NCBI GenBank assembly: GCA_015232935.1
Contig: JADFYT010000004.1
Coordinates: 1 to 35,565, forward strand
From: Desulfamplus sp.
GTDB lineage: Bacteria > Desulfobacterota > Desulfobacteria > Desulfobacterales > Desulfobacteraceae
DNA: 35,565 nt
Direction: 5' to 3'
Every line of letters begins with the position of its first letter. The first letter of the stretch is position 1. Below are positions 2 through 35,565 of this stretch, in pieces. The notes beneath the pieces are model-generated. The model was not told the origin of the DNA. It ran no database searches and worked only from the letters and a program-made list of their open reading frames with translations. A program made the translations under genes and the position numbers.

Positions 2-244
2 GTATCAGAAGAAGACGGCTCTGATGAAGTATCAGAAGAAGACGGCTCTGATGAAGTATCAGAAGAAGACGGCTCTGATGAAGTATCAGAAGAAGACGGC
101 TCTGATGAAGTATCAGAAGAAGACGGCTCTGTCGAAGTATCAGAAGAAGACGGCTCTGATGAAGTATCAGAAGAAGACGGCTCTGATGAAGTATCAGAAG
201 AAGATGACTCTGACGAGAAATCAGAAGAGAGTGACTCTGATGAG
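2..244 (+). repeat. 27-bp tandem repeat, 9 units (gtatcagaagaagacggctctgatgaa), degenerating toward the 3' end
   Basis: Direct reading; units at 2, 29, 56, 83, 110, 137, 164, 191, 218. Confidence 0.95.
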
Positions 245-301
245 GTATCAGAAGGTGAATATGCTCAGAAGAGTTATGAACCCTATAATCCTGGTGCATA
301 G
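2..301 (+). CDS. C-terminal part of a highly acidic repeat protein (VSEEDGSDE)n, 5' truncated by the window edge
   Basis: Frame starting at base 2 is open to TAG at 299-301 and reads (VSEEDGSDE)n...VSEGEYAQKSYEPYNPGA*; next gene ATG is at 304. The listed ORF 24..314 is a different, highly basic frame of the same repeat. Confidence 0.8.
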   Translation, partial: VSEEDGSDEVSEEDGSDEVSEEDGSDEVSEEDGSDEVSEEDGSVEVSEEDGSDEVSEEDGSDEVSEEDDSDEKSEESDSDEVSEGEYAQKSYEPYNPGA

Positions 302-303
302 CC

Positions 304-951
304 ATGTCAAATAAAGATGAACCTGAAAAAAAGACCGGTCCGCCTGGCAATGACCTGGAAAGAGTGCTGGAAAACAAAAAGAGAACTTTGTTTGCAAGGT
401 TTTCAGATAATAAAAATCTCCTGAAATTAACAAGAGGCGAGATGCTCAAAGAGAGGGCATCTCTACAGTCTGCAATAGAGGCTCTTGAGCACAAGAACCA
501 TCTGTCATCCAGAAAACTCAATGATCTTGATTTCGGGATCACGGAAAGGAAAAAAGAAAAACAACGGGCAGAACAGGAGGCAGAGCGTCAGAATAAAGAG
601 CTGATAAGGCTGCTCACAGAAGAGAGCGGCCTTGCCAACGAGATTGAATTTTACATCTCTGAAAAAAAGCAGATTATGGATGCTCTGGAAAAAACCGCGG
701 CCAGGATGGAGTCAAGCATTAGTGCCGTGGAAAAATCTGTCAGGGATATTGGATTTATCAGAGGTGAAACCGGTGCTTTAATTGAAAAAATAGGCAGGCT
801 TGAGAATGGTATCCCTGAAAAAAGCTCGGATATAGAGGGCCTTGATGATTCGATTTATGGAGCAATAAAGGCACTTAGGGAGCTTTATGTCAGGATGCAC
901 AGTATGGAAAAATCTGCAAAGGCCCATTACTATAATCTTAAGGGAGAATAA
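304..951 (+). CDS. Coiled-coil protein
   Basis: 215 aa, rich in E/K/L/Q with heptad-like spacing; starts 2 nt after upstream stop. Confidence 0.75.
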   Translation: MSNKDEPEKKTGPPGNDLERVLENKKRTLFARFSDNKNLLKLTRGEMLKERASLQSAIEALEHKNHLSSRKLNDLDFGITERKKEKQRAEQEAERQNKELIRLLTEESGLANEIEFYISEKKQIMDALEKTAARMESSISAVEKSVRDIGFIRGETGALIEKIGRLENGIPEKSSDIEGLDDSIYGAIKALRELYVRMHSMEKSAKAHYYNLKGE

Positions 952-965
952 AGGAGCAGCTCACT

Positions 966-1838
966 ATGCCAACGGTTAATGTGGGGAAAAAAGAAGATTA
1001 CGTGGATGCTGAAATTACAGAGCAGTTCAGGGTGATAGACAGTATTTCAGATATTGATATGCAGGTTAAGAATATATTGAAAAAAGGCTCCGCCCGATCA
1101 CAGCCCGCTATTGAACTGCCAAAAATCAAAGAGCTTGAACTTCTTAAAAAAGGGATGTATTCCATTGACCTTGAAAAGACAATAAACGACATGTTTCAGG
1201 TCATGAAAAATATGGAGTCCCAGCTCAGAAGTGTTCTTTCGATAAACTCTTCCCTTGAAAAGGATCTCAAGGATTCCAAGGATATAATAGCTGATCTTAA
1301 TACAAGAAACAGCCGTCTTGAAGAAGAACTCTCTCATGCTAAATCCGAACTTCCTTCAAAAAGGGATCTCCAGATCGAGATTGACTACCATCTGGATGAG
1401 AGAAACAAGGCTGAACTCAAGATCCGTGACCTAAAATCAAAGATAGAGAAGCTCAAGCAGAGCCTGGATAAGAATCAGCAAAAAGCATATCATCTGGAAG
1501 AGCAGAGGGGCGATTTTTTAAATGAGATCAATTTCCTGGAAGCCAGATTGAACGCAGACACTGAAACTACAAGGCATCACCAAAGAGAGATCAGCATACT
1601 CAAAGGCAAGATTCTTGTTGGACAGGAGAAGATAAGTGCCTTGCAAAGTCAGCTAAAGGATGCCACAGATGAGAAATACAGGCTTGTAAATGAGCTCAAG
1701 GCGTCAAGAAGTGCTGTAAGGGAACTGCACTCCGCACTTACAGCAACAAAAATTCATGCCAAGAAGACCTTTTATCAGAATGCGGATCAAAACAGGATGG
1801 ATGATGTAAAAGATGCTGTTCAATCTGCAAAGCAGTAA
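966..1838 (+). CDS. Long coiled-coil protein
   Basis: 290 aa, RBS-like aaaggagc upstream; long E/K/L/R heptad-like segments. Confidence 0.75.
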   Translation: MPTVNVGKKEDYVDAEITEQFRVIDSISDIDMQVKNILKKGSARSQPAIELPKIKELELLKKGMYSIDLEKTINDMFQVMKNMESQLRSVLSINSSLEKDLKDSKDIIADLNTRNSRLEEELSHAKSELPSKRDLQIEIDYHLDERNKAELKIRDLKSKIEKLKQSLDKNQQKAYHLEEQRGDFLNEINFLEARLNADTETTRHHQREISILKGKILVGQEKISALQSQLKDATDEKYRLVNELKASRSAVRELHSALTATKIHAKKTFYQNADQNRMDDVKDAVQSAKQ

Positions 1839-1916
1839 TTTGGCAAGGAGGGGGGGTGTTTTACCCAAAAAGGCCGGAGAGTATTTTTCCCAAACGAATG
1901 ATGGGCTGGAACTGAT

Positions 1917-2504
1917 ATGGAAAAAGCTATGGAAGAAGAGCAGTTAATCAGTGATTTCGGGTCAGGCTACGAGGACTACAAAGAGAGGCGTGACCTGTTA
2001 AAAGAGATTGAAGAACTTAAAAAGATAAAACTCTTTCTGGATGAAGAAGATATCAGGCTCGCAAGGGAAACCGAGATACTTTCAGGAGAGCTTGAGGGGA
2101 TAGATATTGCCCTTTCCTCGGCAAATACGCATATTCTGTCATTTGAAAAGAGAAAAAAAGAGTGCAGAAAAAATATAGAACTGCTTCAGAACAAAAAAGA
2201 GGAGATGATAAAGGAGCTTGACAAGCTGCATTTAAAAATGAGGGCTTTGAAAGCCGAGGAAAAATCAAGTGCCGCAATTGACAAGAACCTGAGAAGTGAA
2301 CTCAATGCCATTAACAGCGAAAAAAGCAGGGTTGTGAAGCGTCTTGATATTGTCAAGGCCGGCATCAGGGCTATTGCTAAAGATCAGACAGAGAGATTGC
2401 CAAACCTGGAGGGGTGTGATTCCATACTCAAGCAGGTTTACAATGTTCTTCGAGAGACCCAGGACAGAATGGAAGTATCTGTACTGATGAAAAAAGGGAT
2501 GTAA
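1917..2504 (+). CDS. Coiled-coil protein
   Basis: 195 aa, heptad-like composition; collinear with neighbours. Confidence 0.7.
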   Translation: MEKAMEEEQLISDFGSGYEDYKERRDLLKEIEELKKIKLFLDEEDIRLARETEILSGELEGIDIALSSANTHILSFEKRKKECRKNIELLQNKKEEMIKELDKLHLKMRALKAEEKSSAAIDKNLRSELNAINSEKSRVVKRLDIVKAGIRAIAKDQTERLPNLEGCDSILKQVYNVLRETQDRMEVSVLMKKGM

Positions 2505-2572
2505 GAAGTACAGGCAGTCCTGCTTAGGAATTTTTGCTGGACTGAAATTCCTGATTAATAAAAAAGGATGTA

Positions 2573-2962
2573 ATGAGACAATCTCCTTTGGCACAATTAG
2601 ATGACATGGTTGAAAGAATGGAACATGATCTTGGTCTGATAAACAGCACCTTTGAGATAATGTCGTCAAAAGAGCAGAAGAAGCTGTCAAAAGACATTAA
2701 ATATCTTCTGCTTGATAATATTGCCAAAAAGATAAGGTTTACATTCTATGACATAAAAAACAGGGATGCTGTGCTTTATCAATATATCTACAGAAATAAC
2801 GGTGTTGCTGACAAATCAGATTTCCCGGGCTCTTTTGATAATTTCAAGGATGATTCCATAGCTTTTGACGTGTTTATAGATTTTACAGATACTTTTCTGG
2901 CATTGCGAAAGCAGGACAGGGATACCTTGCTTCAAAATACTGAATATGACTGGTTTGTTTGA
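2573..2962 (+). CDS. Hypothetical protein (129 aa)
   Basis: ORF with RBS-like aaaaaaggatgta upstream; collinear with operon. Confidence 0.6.
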   Translation: MRQSPLAQLDDMVERMEHDLGLINSTFEIMSSKEQKKLSKDIKYLLLDNIAKKIRFTFYDIKNRDAVLYQYIYRNNGVADKSDFPGSFDNFKDDSIAFDVFIDFTDTFLALRKQDRDTLLQNTEYDWFV

Positions 2963-3074
2963 CTTTTATGACGAGATTTGTTTAAATCAGGGCTGACATG
3001 TTTACCTCAGGGTTCCAATGTGGATGGCCTTGATATTTAAAACTGCAAAAAAATATGTGTAAAGGGATCAAAAG

Positions 3075-3380
3075 ATGAAGGTACAGCCAATAGTGTCAGA
3101 TGACGGAAAAACATTGACCCTGGAAGTCTGGGGAAAACTTGATATTACGCTCTACAAGAGTTTCAACGACTCCTATAAAGATAAGGTCGCTTCTGTTTCC
3201 AAGGTTATTATCGATTTCAGTGAAGTTGAATATGTCGATTCATCAGGGCTTGGCATGCTGCTTGTGCTAAGGGAGCGTTGCGGAGGTGATGAGGCGGATA
3301 TTGATATCGTTAATGCAAACACCAGTGTCAGAAAAATACTTGAAACCACAAATTTCCAGCAGTTGTTTACTATAAAGTAA
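3075..3380 (+). CDS. STAS-domain protein (anti-sigma factor antagonist type)
   Basis: VIIDFSEVEYVDSSGLGMLLVL matches the SpoIIAA/STAS signature with the phosphorylatable Ser region. Confidence 0.88.
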   Translation: MKVQPIVSDDGKTLTLEVWGKLDITLYKSFNDSYKDKVASVSKVIIDFSEVEYVDSSGLGMLLVLRERCGGDEADIDIVNANTSVRKILETTNFQQLFTIK

Positions 3381-3448
3381 ATGACCTTAAACCCTGAAAT
3401 ATCCAGGGTCATCCCGCCAATAATTGATAAATGGAGGTATGCAAAATA

Positions 3449-4633
3449 ATGGCAACAGATCGAACAAGTCTCCAGGAACGTCTGGAAGCCCTGAAAAGGG
3501 CGGAAACAGACAGCAGTGCCGTACTGGAAGATGACAAGCAGGATTTTAAGATTGAGAGCAGGATGGCACAGGCTGAGAGCTCGTTAAAAAAAGAGGTACG
3601 CAGCAGGGGCAGGGAAGAGGGCGAGGATGCCGAAGCACCTTCAGGGCCTGTAGGACTTGATATTGGTACAAGCCATGTAATTGTTGCCCAGAATGAGCGG
3701 CGTTATATCAAGACAACCAACCAGTTGAATGCCTTTTTTACCATTCCTCACTCAAAATTTGCAAAAGACATCCTGGTCAAAAATGATGTCTTTTTCTTTG
3801 AACAGGATGGCATGTACTATATTGTGGGCTATTCGGCAGAAAATTTTGCCAACATGTTTGATACAGATACAAGAAGATCCATAAAACAGGGTCTGCTCTG
3901 CTCCGATGAAAAAGAGGGCATTACCGTTATTCAGGCCATTATTCTCTCCTTGATCCAGAAGCCGAAACGTTTTGGGGAGGTATTGTGTTTTGGTATTCCT
4001 GGTGAACCGCTTGATGGCATCGGCTCTGTAACATACCATGAGTCTATAATTAAAATGTTTATCGCCAGAATGGGATTTTCACCCATATCCATAAATGAGG
4101 GGATGGCTGTTGTTCTCTCCGAGCTTGCCGAACATGACTACACCGGCATTGGAATCAGCATTGGCGGCGGCATGTGCAATGTATGTCTCTCTTACCTCTC
4201 TTTTCCTGTCCTTACATACAGCATCCAGATAGGCGGAGATTACATAGACAACTCGGCAGGAGCGGTTGTGGGTATTCCTGGAACCAGGGTCAAGGCGATA
4301 AAAGAGAAGGAGCTGTCACTTGTTGTAAAGCCCAAAGACCGTTTGACAACCGCGTTGCACATATTTTACAATGAACTTATTCAGAAGCTCCAAAAAAGCA
4401 TGGAGAGAGTATTCTCTGCATCTAACCAGATTCCGATGATCTCAAAGCCGATCCCTATTGTCTTGAGCGGTGGTTCTGCCATGCCTGACGGCTTTACGGA
4501 TATTTTTGAAAGATCCCTTGCAAAGGTACGCCTTCCGGTCGAGATATCCTCTGTGCATCTTGCAGAAGATCCTTTGAATACAACCGCCAAAGGGGCTCTT
4601 ATCATGGCCATGACCGAGGAGGTTGCTGAGTAG
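3449..4633 (+). CDS. Divergent actin-like (MreB/Hsp70-fold) ATPase
   Basis: PHOSPHATE1-like GLDIGTSHVIVAQ, PHOSPHATE2-like GIGISIGGGMCNVCL, ADENOSINE-like PIVLSGGSAMPDGF; ATG at 3449 is preceded by GGAGGT (ORF track start 3431 overlaps that RBS). Confidence 0.75.
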   Translation: MATDRTSLQERLEALKRAETDSSAVLEDDKQDFKIESRMAQAESSLKKEVRSRGREEGEDAEAPSGPVGLDIGTSHVIVAQNERRYIKTTNQLNAFFTIPHSKFAKDILVKNDVFFFEQDGMYYIVGYSAENFANMFDTDTRRSIKQGLLCSDEKEGITVIQAIILSLIQKPKRFGEVLCFGIPGEPLDGIGSVTYHESIIKMFIARMGFSPISINEGMAVVLSELAEHDYTGIGISIGGGMCNVCLSYLSFPVLTYSIQIGGDYIDNSAGAVVGIPGTRVKAIKEKELSLVVKPKDRLTTALHIFYNELIQKLQKSMERVFSASNQIPMISKPIPIVLSGGSAMPDGFTDIFERSLAKVRLPVEISSVHLAEDPLNTTAKGALIMAMTEEVAE

Positions 4634-4652
4634 AACAAATCTGAGGTAATCA

Positions 4653-5297
4653 ATGTCTGTTCAGGTAATTATTTACTCTTCAGACCGGATAAGAGGCGGA
4701 ATTTTAAAGGAAATTCTCAGGCGAGTCAAGATTGATGCTCTGCTTCTGGATAATATTATGGATGTGAAGAGTGCCATCTCTTCACATAAACCCCCGGTTG
4801 TTATTTTTGACACGGTGAACAGTCTTAAAAATGAGGTTGCGTTCCTGAAAAAAATCTCCTCTTCTGTTGATGAGTGCATAGTCATGCTGCTTGGTGATGT
4901 TTCGATAATAAACTCCTGGCGTGACCATCATCAAGGGGGTATCAGAAACAGGATATTTCTTCCTGACCCTCTTGATCCTGAAATAATAATATCAAAATCC
5001 AGGCAGATTCTGTCAGACTGGCAACAGGATGTTCTGATTCAGGAAGATGCTGGCAAGGAAGAGTCAAATAAGGAAAAGACAGATAAGGAAGAGTCCCTTG
5101 ACAGTGTCGCATCCTCAGATAGTGCTGCTGCAGATGAAATAGCCACCAGGATTGTGAATCACAAGAATCATGCTGGTGATAAAAAATCTGGTGCTGTGGA
5201 TGAAAAAGATGCTGCATACGAGAAATACGCTGTGGATGAAAACTATGACATTGAACTCCTTGAAAGCGAGTTAAGACAGTATCTCAAGCTGGATTGA
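4653..5297 (+). CDS. Receiver-like protein with charged low-complexity C-terminal tail
   Basis: N-terminal ~120 aa has alternating hydrophobic-strand pattern with VVIFDT at the phosphoacceptor-like position; tail rich in E/D/K. Confidence 0.5.
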   Translation: MSVQVIIYSSDRIRGGILKEILRRVKIDALLLDNIMDVKSAISSHKPPVVIFDTVNSLKNEVAFLKKISSSVDECIVMLLGDVSIINSWRDHHQGGIRNRIFLPDPLDPEIIISKSRQILSDWQQDVLIQEDAGKEESNKEKTDKEESLDSVASSDSAAADEIATRIVNHKNHAGDKKSGAVDEKDAAYEKYAVDENYDIELLESELRQYLKLD

Positions 5298-6280
5298 TGC
5301 AATGGAACCGCAAGCAGAATATGTGTGCGGCAAATCAAGCGGAATTGGCAAGTGGTAAATGTCCAATGGTTAATAAAGATCCTGTAAAGATTGTGGCTGT
5401 TATCGGACCAAAAGGCGGTGTCGGCAAAACTTCCATATCAGCAAACCTTGCAATATCCCTATCCAGACTTGGCCGAAAGGTTGTAGCTGTTGACCTTGAC
5501 CTTGGTGCCTCAAACCTCAATACCTTTCTGGGAATCAGAAAATCAAAATATACTCTTGATGATTTTGTGTTGAACAAGGTTGACAAACTGCATGAGATTG
5601 TCCTTGAAACAGGCATCAAAGACATGGGCTTTATATGCGGCGGAAACATTCCTGGAATTGCCAATCTCCATTACAGCAAAAAGATGAAGCTGATCCGTAA
5701 CCTCTCCATGCTGGAACATGATTTTGTACTGCTCGACCTTGGTGCCGGTGCCTCATACAACGTAGTTGATTTTGTTATTATATCCCGGCAAAACCTTCTT
5801 GTGACAACTCCGGAAATCCCCTCTATACTCAACACCTACAGTTTTTTAAAAACGCTTGTTTTCAGAAGGCTTGCAATGGCTTTAAAAGCACTGGATAATA
5901 AGGCCATACTTGATCTTGTTGAAAGGGCAAGGGATGTTGATAAAAATCCTCATCTTAAAAAAATGGGTGATCTTGTACGTACACTTGGCAGGATTGATGA
6001 AAGGGCATCTGATCTTGCTGTAGAGGTACTTGCTGGTATCAGGCCGACCCTGGTTCTGAACAGAATACGGTCAGACAGGGATGAAAACGCCTGTGCCGCG
6101 ATTGAGAACCTGATGAAACAGTATCTTGGCATTGAAGCCAGACGGATACTGCATGTACATGAGGATGCGGCTGTCGGCCATGCCATTGCAAAGATGAGAC
6201 CTGTCATGATTGAGAGGCCGGATTCTGTTTTTGCAAAGGATATAAACGAGATAGCCCTGTTTTTAACTCAGGATACCTGA
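5297..6280 (+). CDS. MinD/ParA/FlhG-type P-loop ATPase
   Basis: Deviant Walker A GPKGGVGKTSISANLA, VDLDLGASNL, HDFVLLDLGAG; ATG overlaps upstream TGA (tgatg). Confidence 0.88.
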   Translation: MQWNRKQNMCAANQAELASGKCPMVNKDPVKIVAVIGPKGGVGKTSISANLAISLSRLGRKVVAVDLDLGASNLNTFLGIRKSKYTLDDFVLNKVDKLHEIVLETGIKDMGFICGGNIPGIANLHYSKKMKLIRNLSMLEHDFVLLDLGAGASYNVVDFVIISRQNLLVTTPEIPSILNTYSFLKTLVFRRLAMALKALDNKAILDLVERARDVDKNPHLKKMGDLVRTLGRIDERASDLAVEVLAGIRPTLVLNRIRSDRDENACAAIENLMKQYLGIEARRILHVHEDAAVGHAIAKMRPVMIERPDSVFAKDINEIALFLTQDT

Positions 6281-6293
6281 GTGTTTCCGCATC

Positions 6294-8195
6294 TTATGGT
6301 TTAACCACAACCTTTTTCTGATCAGTCGTACTATTATGGTTATTCAAACCCGATTTCTGGTCAGCCGCCTTGACCTGAGCTATTGCCTGCCAGATCAGCT
6401 CCAGTTTTGCCGAGATCTCTTTTAGCTCATTTTCAATATCTGCAATATCTATCTGCTTTGTATCAATGTTGGCTGTTTTTGTTAAAACCGACTTGAGTTT
6501 GATCAAGTCAGAGTTACCCTCTTCATTTATGGCCGCTTCTTCCGATATGACAGGTTCTTCTGATATGGCGGGTTTTTCGGATATGAGAGATTCTTCAGGA
6601 TTTTTTATTGAGCCGGCACTGCTTGATTTGTTCATCAAATCATCTTTTGCAAGGTTCTTTTTATTGTGATCTCCGGAATTTCCCATTTTCTGGTACCGCT
6701 CTTCCAGACGCTGCTCTATCTTTGAGATAAGAGCAAGAAGATGGCCTGACCTGAAACGCACTTCATCTATTTGCTGCTCAAGCTCTTTTTCTGCAAGGTG
6801 GTTGTTATCGCCATCTGGTGATGTCGCCGGTAGGTTTTTTGTTGTTTCTTCCGGTTCTGGTGGTGCTGTTGTTGATTGTGCTGCTATTGTTTCTGCTGGT
6901 GTCAATGTCGTTCTCTGTGCTGGTTGTTCTGTTGTCTGTGCTGGCGATGGTTCTATTGCTGGAAATGAGCCGTCAGATTGAATAGTTAGGGCAGATGCAG
7001 TGTATTCATTTGAAGGCCGGCCGGCAGTTTCAGGTTGGTTGACAAAATCATGCTGGTTTGAGGTTTCATGCTGGTTTGCAATTTCAGGCTGATTTACAGT
7101 TTTATTTTGGCTCAAAGTTTCAGGCTGATTGATGGCAGAAGAAACTTCTGTTGTGGCATTAAGATCAAATATCCCTGTCGCATTGATATTAAAAAGCCCC
7201 ATGGCTTCAAGATGTGGTGCTGCTAATGAAATTATGTTTGTTTGTCCTGATCTGGTCAGTATTGATAATCCTATAAGTGACGCAATGCCCAGATAAAGAG
7301 CAATGCACAGGTATGCATAGGATTGTTTTTTTCTGCCAAGGATGCTTTTTAGCTGCAAAAAAAGATAGATCAGGAATCCCAGCGGCAGCAGAAACTCAAA
7401 AAAGAGATAGGCGGGCTTGAGAAAAAATGGCCATCTGGAAAACAACTTCAGATCAAGCACTGCCTGCATCACTGTAAGATCATTTCTAAGACCCGCAATA
7501 AAAGGAAAGCAGCAGAAAAGAGCCAGCAGAAAGACTGGAATAACTACCACCTGGCTGCTTTTCAGAAAAAAGAATGATGCATAAAACAAGATGGCAGAGC
7601 TTATAAAAAACATAAACAGAAGTTTGAAGTAGGATATGCCAAAAATAAGGAAGTGCTGATCCAAAGGCGGATTGTTAAGATAGAAAATCAACAGTACGGG
7701 AAGAGCAAGCCCAATGAGAAAAAGTGCGGAAGCGATAAACAGTAGTGATTGCCCCATGGACTCTGCCTGGTTGATCCTGTTAAACTCGTTGCTTTTTTTT
7801 CTGGAATAAAAGTGATCTTCAAAACTCTCGCCATTTTCTGAATCTCTTTTTTCAAGAAATTTTCTCTTTTCCGGCTTCTCCTGATAATCTTCATCTTCAA
7901 ACAATTCTCTCTCTTCATCATGGTCATCTTCAGATATGGCTCTATACTCCTCATCTTTGGATGTCCCGCTCTTTTTATAAAGATAATCATCACTATCTTG
8001 ATCCAGATTCATGCCTTTATTACAGTTTGTATATTCATCAGAAGTACTCTCAAAAGAGTCATTGTCAAGCTCCAATCTGCTTTTGGTGAAATCATCGTCA
8101 AATATCCTGTCTTCAACAGTATCTCTATTTGCATCAGAGTTCTTTTTAAAATATTTTCTTTTTCCCGCAAAAGACTTTTTGTTCTTTTTCCTCAT
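6294..8195 (-). CDS. Multi-pass membrane protein with acidic N-terminus and Q/T/E/P-rich repetitive C-terminal region
   Basis: Several hydrophobic helices in the middle; repeats such as NQPETLSQNKTVNQPEIANQHETSNQHDFVNQPETA; start placed at MRKKNKKS with ggggtatt upstream. Confidence 0.6.
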   Translation of the reverse strand: MRKKNKKSFAGKRKYFKKNSDANRDTVEDRIFDDDFTKSRLELDNDSFESTSDEYTNCNKGMNLDQDSDDYLYKKSGTSKDEEYRAISEDDHDEERELFEDEDYQEKPEKRKFLEKRDSENGESFEDHFYSRKKSNEFNRINQAESMGQSLLFIASALFLIGLALPVLLIFYLNNPPLDQHFLIFGISYFKLLFMFFISSAILFYASFFFLKSSQVVVIPVFLLALFCCFPFIAGLRNDLTVMQAVLDLKLFSRWPFFLKPAYLFFEFLLPLGFLIYLFLQLKSILGRKKQSYAYLCIALYLGIASLIGLSILTRSGQTNIISLAAPHLEAMGLFNINATGIFDLNATTEVSSAINQPETLSQNKTVNQPEIANQHETSNQHDFVNQPETAGRPSNEYTASALTIQSDGSFPAIEPSPAQTTEQPAQRTTLTPAETIAAQSTTAPPEPEETTKNLPATSPDGDNNHLAEKELEQQIDEVRFRSGHLLALISKIEQRLEERYQKMGNSGDHNKKNLAKDDLMNKSSSAGSIKNPEESLISEKPAISEEPVISEEAAINEEGNSDLIKLKSVLTKTANIDTKQIDIADIENELKEISAKLELIWQAIAQVKAADQKSGLNNHNSTTDQKKVVVKP

Positions 8196-8291
8196 AATAC
8201 CCCCGAATTTTAACTTTCTGCCGAGAAGTCCCCTTCCTGAGCGTAGCAAAGGGATGGGTAGTTGACTGGCTCGATTCTGGCCATTTTGCAT

Positions 8292-8317
8292 CGTGAAAAT
8301 CATAATGCATTTTCACG
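8292..8317. repeat. Perfect 9-bp-stem palindrome CGTGAAAAT-cataatgc-ATTTTCACG, member of a dispersed family
   Basis: Direct reading; related copies near 9879, 18044, 18108 and 30394. Confidence 0.7.
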
Positions 8318-35295: not shown

Positions 35296-35565
35296 CTATT
35301 TATTTTCAGCCTTTTCTTCTTCAGCGGGCTCGGCCTCAACAGCTTCTGTCTCTTCCTCTGCCGCAGGTTTTGCCTCAGCAGATTCTGTCTCTTTCTCTGC
35401 CGCAGGTTCTGCCTCAACAGCTTCTGTCTCTTCCTCTGCCGCAGGTTTTGCCTCAGCAGATTCTGTCTCTTTCTCTGCCGCAGGTTCTGCCTCAACAGCT
35501 TCTGTCTCTTCCTCTGCCGCAGGTTCTGCCTCAGCAGATTCTGTCTCTTTCTCTGCCGCAGGTTC
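35296..35565 (-). CDS. C-terminal part of an acidic Ala/Glu repeat protein, truncated by window edge
   Basis: Frame from 35565 reads (EPAAEKETESAEA/EPAAEEETEAVEA)n EPAEEEKAENK* with TAG at 35298-35296; listed ORF 35157..35495 is an off-frame reading of the repeat. Confidence 0.75.
   Translation of the reverse strand, partial: EPAAEKETESAEAEPAAEEETEAVEAEPAAEKETESAEAKPAAEEETEAVEAEPAAEKETESAEAKPAAEEETEAVEAEPAEEEKAENK
35332..35565 (-). repeat. 39-bp (13-aa) tandem repeat, 6 units alternating in two variants (78-bp higher-order unit)
   Basis: Direct reading. Confidence 0.95.

Follow-up and report, generated by a model that had tools for sequence, protein, structure and literature searches.

A magnetosome mad23-mad29-type gene block with a volactin-family actin in a Desulfamplus-like genome, and its relatives beside peptidoglycan enzymes

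Introduction

What is the function of a row of closely spaced, same-strand genes for coiled-coil proteins, a STAS protein, an actin-like protein, a receiver-like protein, and a MinD-like ATPase at one end of a Desulfamplus sp. contig (GenBank assembly GCA_015232935.1, contig JADFYT010000004.1)? The DNA analyzed here, referred to as the window, is this one whole contig (G000:C431; 35,565 nucleotides), and its source genome is 64% complete in 486 contigs. A preliminary description made from the sequence had regarded positions 2-6280 as an undescribed cytoskeletal or positioning operon. Our comparison of related loci indicates that this region is almost certainly the mad23-mad24-mad25-mad26-(HORMA-like)-(STAS)-mad28-RECN-mad29 part of the magnetosome cluster of a Desulfamplus-like magnetotactic bacterium, with mamK and other mam genes on other contigs. 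RECN is our name for the receiver-fold protein encoded between mad28 and mad29.

Results

Gene order and magnetosome context

The gene order in the window (the tail of a HEAT-repeat gene, three coiled-coil genes [CC1, CC2, and CC3], a HORMA-like gene, and genes for STAS, actin, receiver, and ATPase proteins) agrees with that of Fundidesulfovibrio FSS-1, published as mamK, mad10, ..., mad23, x, mad25, mad26, mad28, x, x, mad29 (PMC7951924). The identical gene block was present in many genomes when related loci were compared, and this recurrence places the order far above chance. The window's own genome encodes a MamK (476 bits against a cut-off of 400) on contig C51, alongside a MamN-like gene, and a MamA (265 bits against 200) on contig C432, which also carries a magnetochrome protein over its cut-off, MamE-like proteins, MamB, and MamQ. 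MamA, magnetochrome, MamK, and a Mad28-type actin share one contig in BW-1 (G035 = G199), G085, G132 (= G197), and G156 (= G196). The block is preceded by an actin, extra coiled coils, and a HEAT protein in three same-order genomes, and this upstream actin lay above the NCBI MamK cut-off in the two of them that were tested. A scan with the actin profile, covering 85,462 species genomes, returned 80 loci; RS-1 was absent from them, and the matches included close relatives in the named magnetotactic bacteria Desulfamplus magnetovallimortis BW-1, Ca. Magnetobacterium casense MYR-1, and Ca. Magnetominusculus xianensis HCH-1. MamA over its cut-off and magnetochrome occurred in all mad-context genomes tested (7/7), and neither was found in the tested genomes, most of them at least 90% complete, in which the sole such actin either adjoins a penicillin-binding protein (PBP) or an amidase or belongs to the Desulfobulbaceae type.

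The features of the region are as follows.

2-301, plus strand: 3' end of a mad23-type HEAT-repeat gene with an acidic repeat tail, truncated by the contig end (complete homologue in locus L060; repeat array)
304-951, plus strand: CC1, coiled-coil protein in the place of mad24 (FSS-1 likewise has a gene between mad23 [HEAT] and mad25)
966-1838, plus strand: CC2, coiled-coil protein at the mad25 position (order kept in mad loci; mad23-x-mad25-mad26-mad28 in FSS-1)
1917-2504, plus strand: CC3, coiled-coil protein at the mad26 position (order in mad loci and FSS-1)
2573-2962, plus strand: small conserved accessory protein, at best HORMA-like (bacHORMA_1 under its cut-off)
3075-3380, plus strand: single-domain STAS protein (PF01740, E=2e-14)
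3431-4633, plus strand: Mad28, a Volactin-family actin (PF25216 match, clade with BW-1, motifs)
4653-5297, plus strand: RECN, receiver-fold protein (AlphaFold2 model, PDB fold matches, homology to a PBP N-terminal domain)
5294-6280, plus strand: MinD/ParA-type ATPase at the mad29 position (CbiA, E=3e-17; order)
6294-8303, minus strand: flanking membrane/low-complexity protein of 669 aa, without family (same place in L060)

The actin and the Volactin family

In Pfam, the actin matched the Volactin family (PF25216) over residues 74-393 with 257 bits (cut-off, 35; E=3e-76). Its NCBIfam scores did not reach the cut-offs for MamK (NF040964; 20 bits against 400), PilM (22 against 133), MreB (17 against 293), or FtsA (16 against 176), and a sequence search gave no relatives with solved structures. 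The published signature of Mad28 consists of Ser in place of Asp in the phosphate-2 motif (xxxSxGxG) and a connecting-1 motif (xExx) without Pro (PMC10653835), both of which are present in the window actin (GISIGGGMC and SINEGMAV, respectively). Ser and the lack of Pro were found in 106/106 volactin-family relatives, against Asp and Pro in 17/17 MamK sequences; as the signature is common to all sampled bacterial volactins, it is necessary, not specific, for Mad28. In the maximum-likelihood tree, the window actin formed a clade with BW-1 (L041/L073; support, 100/97) within a Desulfobacterota Mad28 clade (100/99), and the matching supports in a larger quick tree were 97 and 98. BW-1 has a single published mad28 (PMC10653835), and its genome yielded a single PF25216 match. 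On profile, motif, and tree evidence, the actin is Mad28, the second magnetosome actin, and not MamK itself. MamK resembles Mad28 in being actin-like, magnetosome-associated, and present in the same genomes, but it belongs to another family and carries the opposite diagnostic residues.

The family was named for VolA of Haloferax volcanii, an actin for disk-shape formation (PMC10869688). VolA belongs to PF25216 by profile, as does the window actin, but its role is an archaeal one in disk shape, and PMC10869688 describes no magnetosome or receiver partner. The top PF25216 score in the order search (320 bits) came from a volactin inside a gas vesicle cluster (L031, 3388-19680; GvpK, Gas_vesicle, and an ArsA-type ATPase), another organelle-like setting for the family. 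A group of Desulfobulbaceae-type genomes (loci L088, L150, and L151; genomes G205, G206, G209, G212, G213, and G215), among them that of the isolate Desulfurivibrio sp. AMeS2, encode actins that score above the MamK cut-off, in most as a closely spaced pair, together with a close Mad28 relative; magnetochrome was not found in these genomes.

RECN and its homology to PBP-fused receivers

RECN had no Pfam match. In its AlphaFold2 model, a receiver domain (residues 1-135) is joined by a disordered linker to a C-terminal helix, LLESELRQYLKLD, and the mean predicted local distance difference test score (pLDDT) reaches about 95 or higher across most of residues 1-130. The PDB fold matches were receiver domains, including the CpaE receiver (4dn6), and as modeled RECN has the five-fold beta-alpha receiver fold. 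Asp53, at the end of beta-3 in the usual place of the phospho-acceptor, was invariant in 28 sequences with a mean column identity of 20%, and the alignment places DP(L/F)DP where typical receivers have KP, which contains the switch Lys. The C-terminal helix, with a consensus of about LExDLKxFLxLK/D, is shared by most stand-alone copies, and the PBP-fused receivers lack it. RECN was homologous to the N-terminal domain of the class A PBPs encoded behind other volactins (profile-profile E=1.7e-35), and cross-searches between RECN and PBP-fused receivers mostly gave 1e-13 to 1e-36. The receiver profile used to compare the loci was built without fused or unrelated seeds. Proteins of ~940 aa near the Desulfobulbaceae volactins were considered as an operon partner and rejected; the copy checked, in L101, is a PBP-like enzyme whose gene lies ~3 kb downstream of the actin and is separated from it by a gene on the opposite strand.

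Volactins beside peptidoglycan enzymes

Non-magnetosome volactins of the same order and of Nitrospirota have a peptidoglycan enzyme directly downstream, which is either an Amidase_2 protein or a class A PBP (Transgly and Transpeptidase domains) that begins with a receiver domain. Across the loci that the family search yielded for the order, peptidoglycan enzymes accounted for 14/23 downstream neighbours of volactins and for 4/287 other genes (Fisher p=3.5e-15, uncorrected for shared ancestry), with profiles seeded from some of those loci. The possibility that this adjacency was a profile artefact was considered, and in those individual cases that were checked, independent Pfam matches confirmed the enzymes. 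The arrangement of a volactin followed by a class A PBP with a receiver-like N-terminus was seen in L135 (9953-13245), L044, L048, L050, L052, L121, L134, and L136-L139, and a volactin followed by an Amidase_2 protein (muramoyl-alanine amidase) in L032, L033, L035, L036, L037, L039, L042, L043, and L045. The amidase-linked volactins formed one clade with 100/100 support. Ca. Magnetobacterium casense MYR-1 carries a PBP-linked volactin alongside Mad28-type copies.

L188 has a separate gene for each of the actin, RECN, and the PBP, and L040 of genome G063 has an actin-RECN-MinD trio inside the Mad28 clade that adjoins a class A PBP sequence. G063 is 97% complete and is without MamA over the cut-off or magnetochrome, so this locus may represent a transitional or magnetosome-lost state. 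In the literature searched, which covered few subscription papers, mad28 shared no paper with volactin or with penicillin-binding protein, and the link of Mad28 to volactins and peptidoglycan appears to be unpublished.

Accessory genes and contig structure

Eight complete same-strand open reading frames (ORFs) were read in 304-6280; they are spaced by 2-112 bp, except that the last two (4653-5297 and 5294-6280) overlap by 4 bp. The actin probably starts inside its ORF at ATG 3449, which gives it the same length as in L060 (394 aa), and ATG 5297 or ATG 5366 is a likely start for the ATPase as an alternative to TTG 5294. The preliminary description had counted nine consecutive genes, the first encoding a separate acidic repeat protein; the eight complete ORFs stand, and the ninth dissolves into the tail of a truncated gene. 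In L060, from a Desulfamplus genome, a complete HEAT-repeat gene (4777-6864, 695 aa) with a similar acidic repeat tail is separated by only 3 bp from the CC1 homologue that follows it, and because this complete gene has a like tail and the same next gene, 2-301 is read as the tail of the upstream HEAT gene. Mad23 contains a HEAT domain (PMC12748827). The contig start sits within a 27-bp tandem repeat (9.4 copies at 1-254), 39/78-bp tandem repeat units occupy the other end (35333-35565), and the repeats at both ends are the probable cause of the breaks in the assembly.

The coiled coils, STAS domain, actin fold, and MinD/ParA ATPase of the preliminary description were all borne out by Pfam matches, and its receiver-like protein by the modeled fold and the PDB receiver matches. 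CC1-CC3 gave just weak SMC/Crescentin-like Pfam matches; CC1 is kept in L060, L065, L038, L073, L075, and L105, and we infer its name, mad24, from gene order. The 2573-2962 protein, left uncharacterised in the preliminary description and also present in L060, L065, and L069, scored 32.9 bits against bacHORMA_1 (PF18138) and did not reach the gathering cut-off of 35.6; its homologues gave 19.6 bits or no match, and its AlphaFold2 model was poor (pLDDT 55) and uninformative on a HORMA fold. The STAS gene recurs in L060, L065, L069, L073, and L096. The ATPase scored 80 and 103 bits against the NCBIfam MinD models TIGR01968 and TIGR01969, below their cut-offs of 213 and 202, and by these scores it is a member of the MinD/ParA superfamily and not MinD proper; in loci of Desulfobacterota and of Nitrospirota, its gene comes after mad28 and RECN. 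The flanking 6294-8303 protein also has a counterpart elsewhere in L063 and is not assigned to the system.

Discussion

In RS-1, Mad28 holds the magnetosome chain at the concave side of the cell, and deletion of mad28 was reported to misplace the chain; MamK spaces the subchains, Mad23, Mad25, and Mad26 assemble and straighten them, and Mad25 is the hub of the interactions and the partner tested for Mad28 (PMC12748827). Mad28 binds liposomes and favours concave membrane (PMC12713370), and filaments, membrane binding, and concave-side localisation have been reported for RS-1 and BW-1 Mad28 (PMC12713370, PMC10653835). The machine for spatial organization that the preliminary description had envisaged, with a filament former, scaffolds, and a MinD-like ATPase, was therefore right in kind and equals the published role of mad genes in chain organization (PMC12748827, PMC12713370). 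Its claim of novelty does not hold, as the actin is Mad28 of the known magnetosome gene set and has known partners there. The actin is under the cut-offs of MamK, PilM, and MreB, yet the system is a known one and of the same cluster type as MamK, and its neighbourhood is strongly conserved.

The mad23-mad29 regions of Solidesulfovibrio magneticus RS-1, FSS-1, and BW-1 are like the window region in order and in the combination of HEAT and coiled-coil proteins with Mad28 and a MinD-like ATPase, and MamK and MamA are in the genome, as here. The window differs from them by the HORMA-like and STAS genes between mad26 and mad28 and by the very acidic repeat tail of the HEAT protein; in BW-1, the STAS gene comes behind mad28, and the locus yielded no HORMA-like gene. 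As RECN and a MinD-like gene follow the actin in both Desulfobacterota and Nitrospirota, Mad28-RECN-Mad29 is taken as the conserved core, and the HEAT, coiled-coil, STAS, and HORMA-like genes around it appear to vary more. RECN could be an adaptor made with Mad28 whose conserved C-terminal helix may dock Mad29, and the latter, a MinD-like ATPase, would time or place assembly in analogy to CpaE/TadZ. In CpaE, a receiver-like domain lies ahead of a MinD-like ATPase. The CpaE/TadZ proteins of Tad pili are like the RECN-ATPase pair in that an atypical receiver adjoins a MinD-like ATPase, but they are one protein with another cargo, and the window has two overlapping genes, so this is a resemblance only. 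The STAS and HORMA-like proteins would act as lineage-specific regulators.

Several points weigh against placing the region in a magnetosome cluster or against the details of this assignment. MamB, MamE, and MamQ of the window's genome are best-family matches yet under the NCBI curated cut-offs, and the window contig has no mam genes and is truncated within the HEAT gene. The names mad24, mad25, mad26, and mad29 were assigned by order and domain type, the identity of Mad28 is argued through BW-1 (one strong family member, one published mad28), and the roles of RECN and of the STAS and HORMA-like proteins are proposals of ours. In four or five Desulfamplus relatives, including L061, L062, L063, and L064 (=L046), mad28 is apart from the other mad genes, which indicates that strict operon unity is not universal and that the cluster rearranges often.

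These points have to be set against what other explanations can account for. A new cytoskeletal positioning operon without relation to magnetosomes would agree with an actin that the profiles separate from MamK, PilM, and MreB and with the volactin relatives in genomes lacking magnetosome markers. However, the linkage data refute it: among the tested genomes, the CC1-CC2-CC3 and HEAT block occurred in those with MamA and magnetochrome, the order matches a published magnetosome cluster, and the window's genome itself carries magnetosome genes, leaving this explanation very improbable. A plasmid or chromosome partition system, suggested by the company of actin-like and ParA/MinD-like genes, is practically negligible, since no ParR/ParB-like gene was identified beside them, the flanks look housekeeping when their translations are read by eye (ComF-like, ATP synthase, MotAB, and FtsK), and the synteny extends across magnetotactic genomes of Desulfobacterota and Nitrospirota.

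More serious, though still unlikely, is the view that the actin, receiver, and ATPase here mainly direct wall growth or cell shape and that their location in a magnetosome cluster is incidental. In Haloferax, the actin VolA serves cell shape (PMC10869688), volactin relatives have PBPs or amidases downstream, and the actin-RECN-MinD trio of G063 stands beside a PBP in a genome without the two markers. Nevertheless, the chain was reported to be misplaced in the RS-1 mad28 deletion (PMC12748827), and the receiver gene in the window has no attached PBP and has a C-terminal helix instead. 

Within the magnetosome reading, Mad28-RECN would be homologous to a volactin-receiver pair whose output elsewhere is a peptidoglycan synthase, so that a cell-wall actin module was probably re-used, and the simplest reading of the comparison is that magnetosome positioning re-used such a module. 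The actin tree is unrooted, which leaves the direction of re-use without support. The full scenario, in which Mad28 is a volactin, bacterial volactins direct the cell wall, the receiver split from the PBP, gained a helix, and joined a MinD-like ATPase and coiled coils, and the concave preference was inherited, is tentative, and we consider it slightly less probable than an even chance. The PBP-linked volactins would be analogous to MreB with class A PBPs in the Rod system, where an actin likewise works with peptidoglycan synthases, but they belong to another actin family and have a receiver domain fused to the PBP.

Since the operon is already known, the discovery value of the locus itself is small. 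Our comparison assigns the magnetosome actin that is least understood to a family whose name comes from a cell-shape actin of an archaeon, shows that bacterial volactins neighbour peptidoglycan synthases and amidases in genomes where no magnetosome markers were detected, and singles out RECN, between mad28 and mad29, as an unstudied putative adaptor. It suggests that MreB may not be the only actin system linked to peptidoglycan and provides a concrete hypothesis of origin for the evolution of bacterial organelle positioning. If this hypothesis is true, a module that used to set the sites of wall growth would now position magnetosomes.

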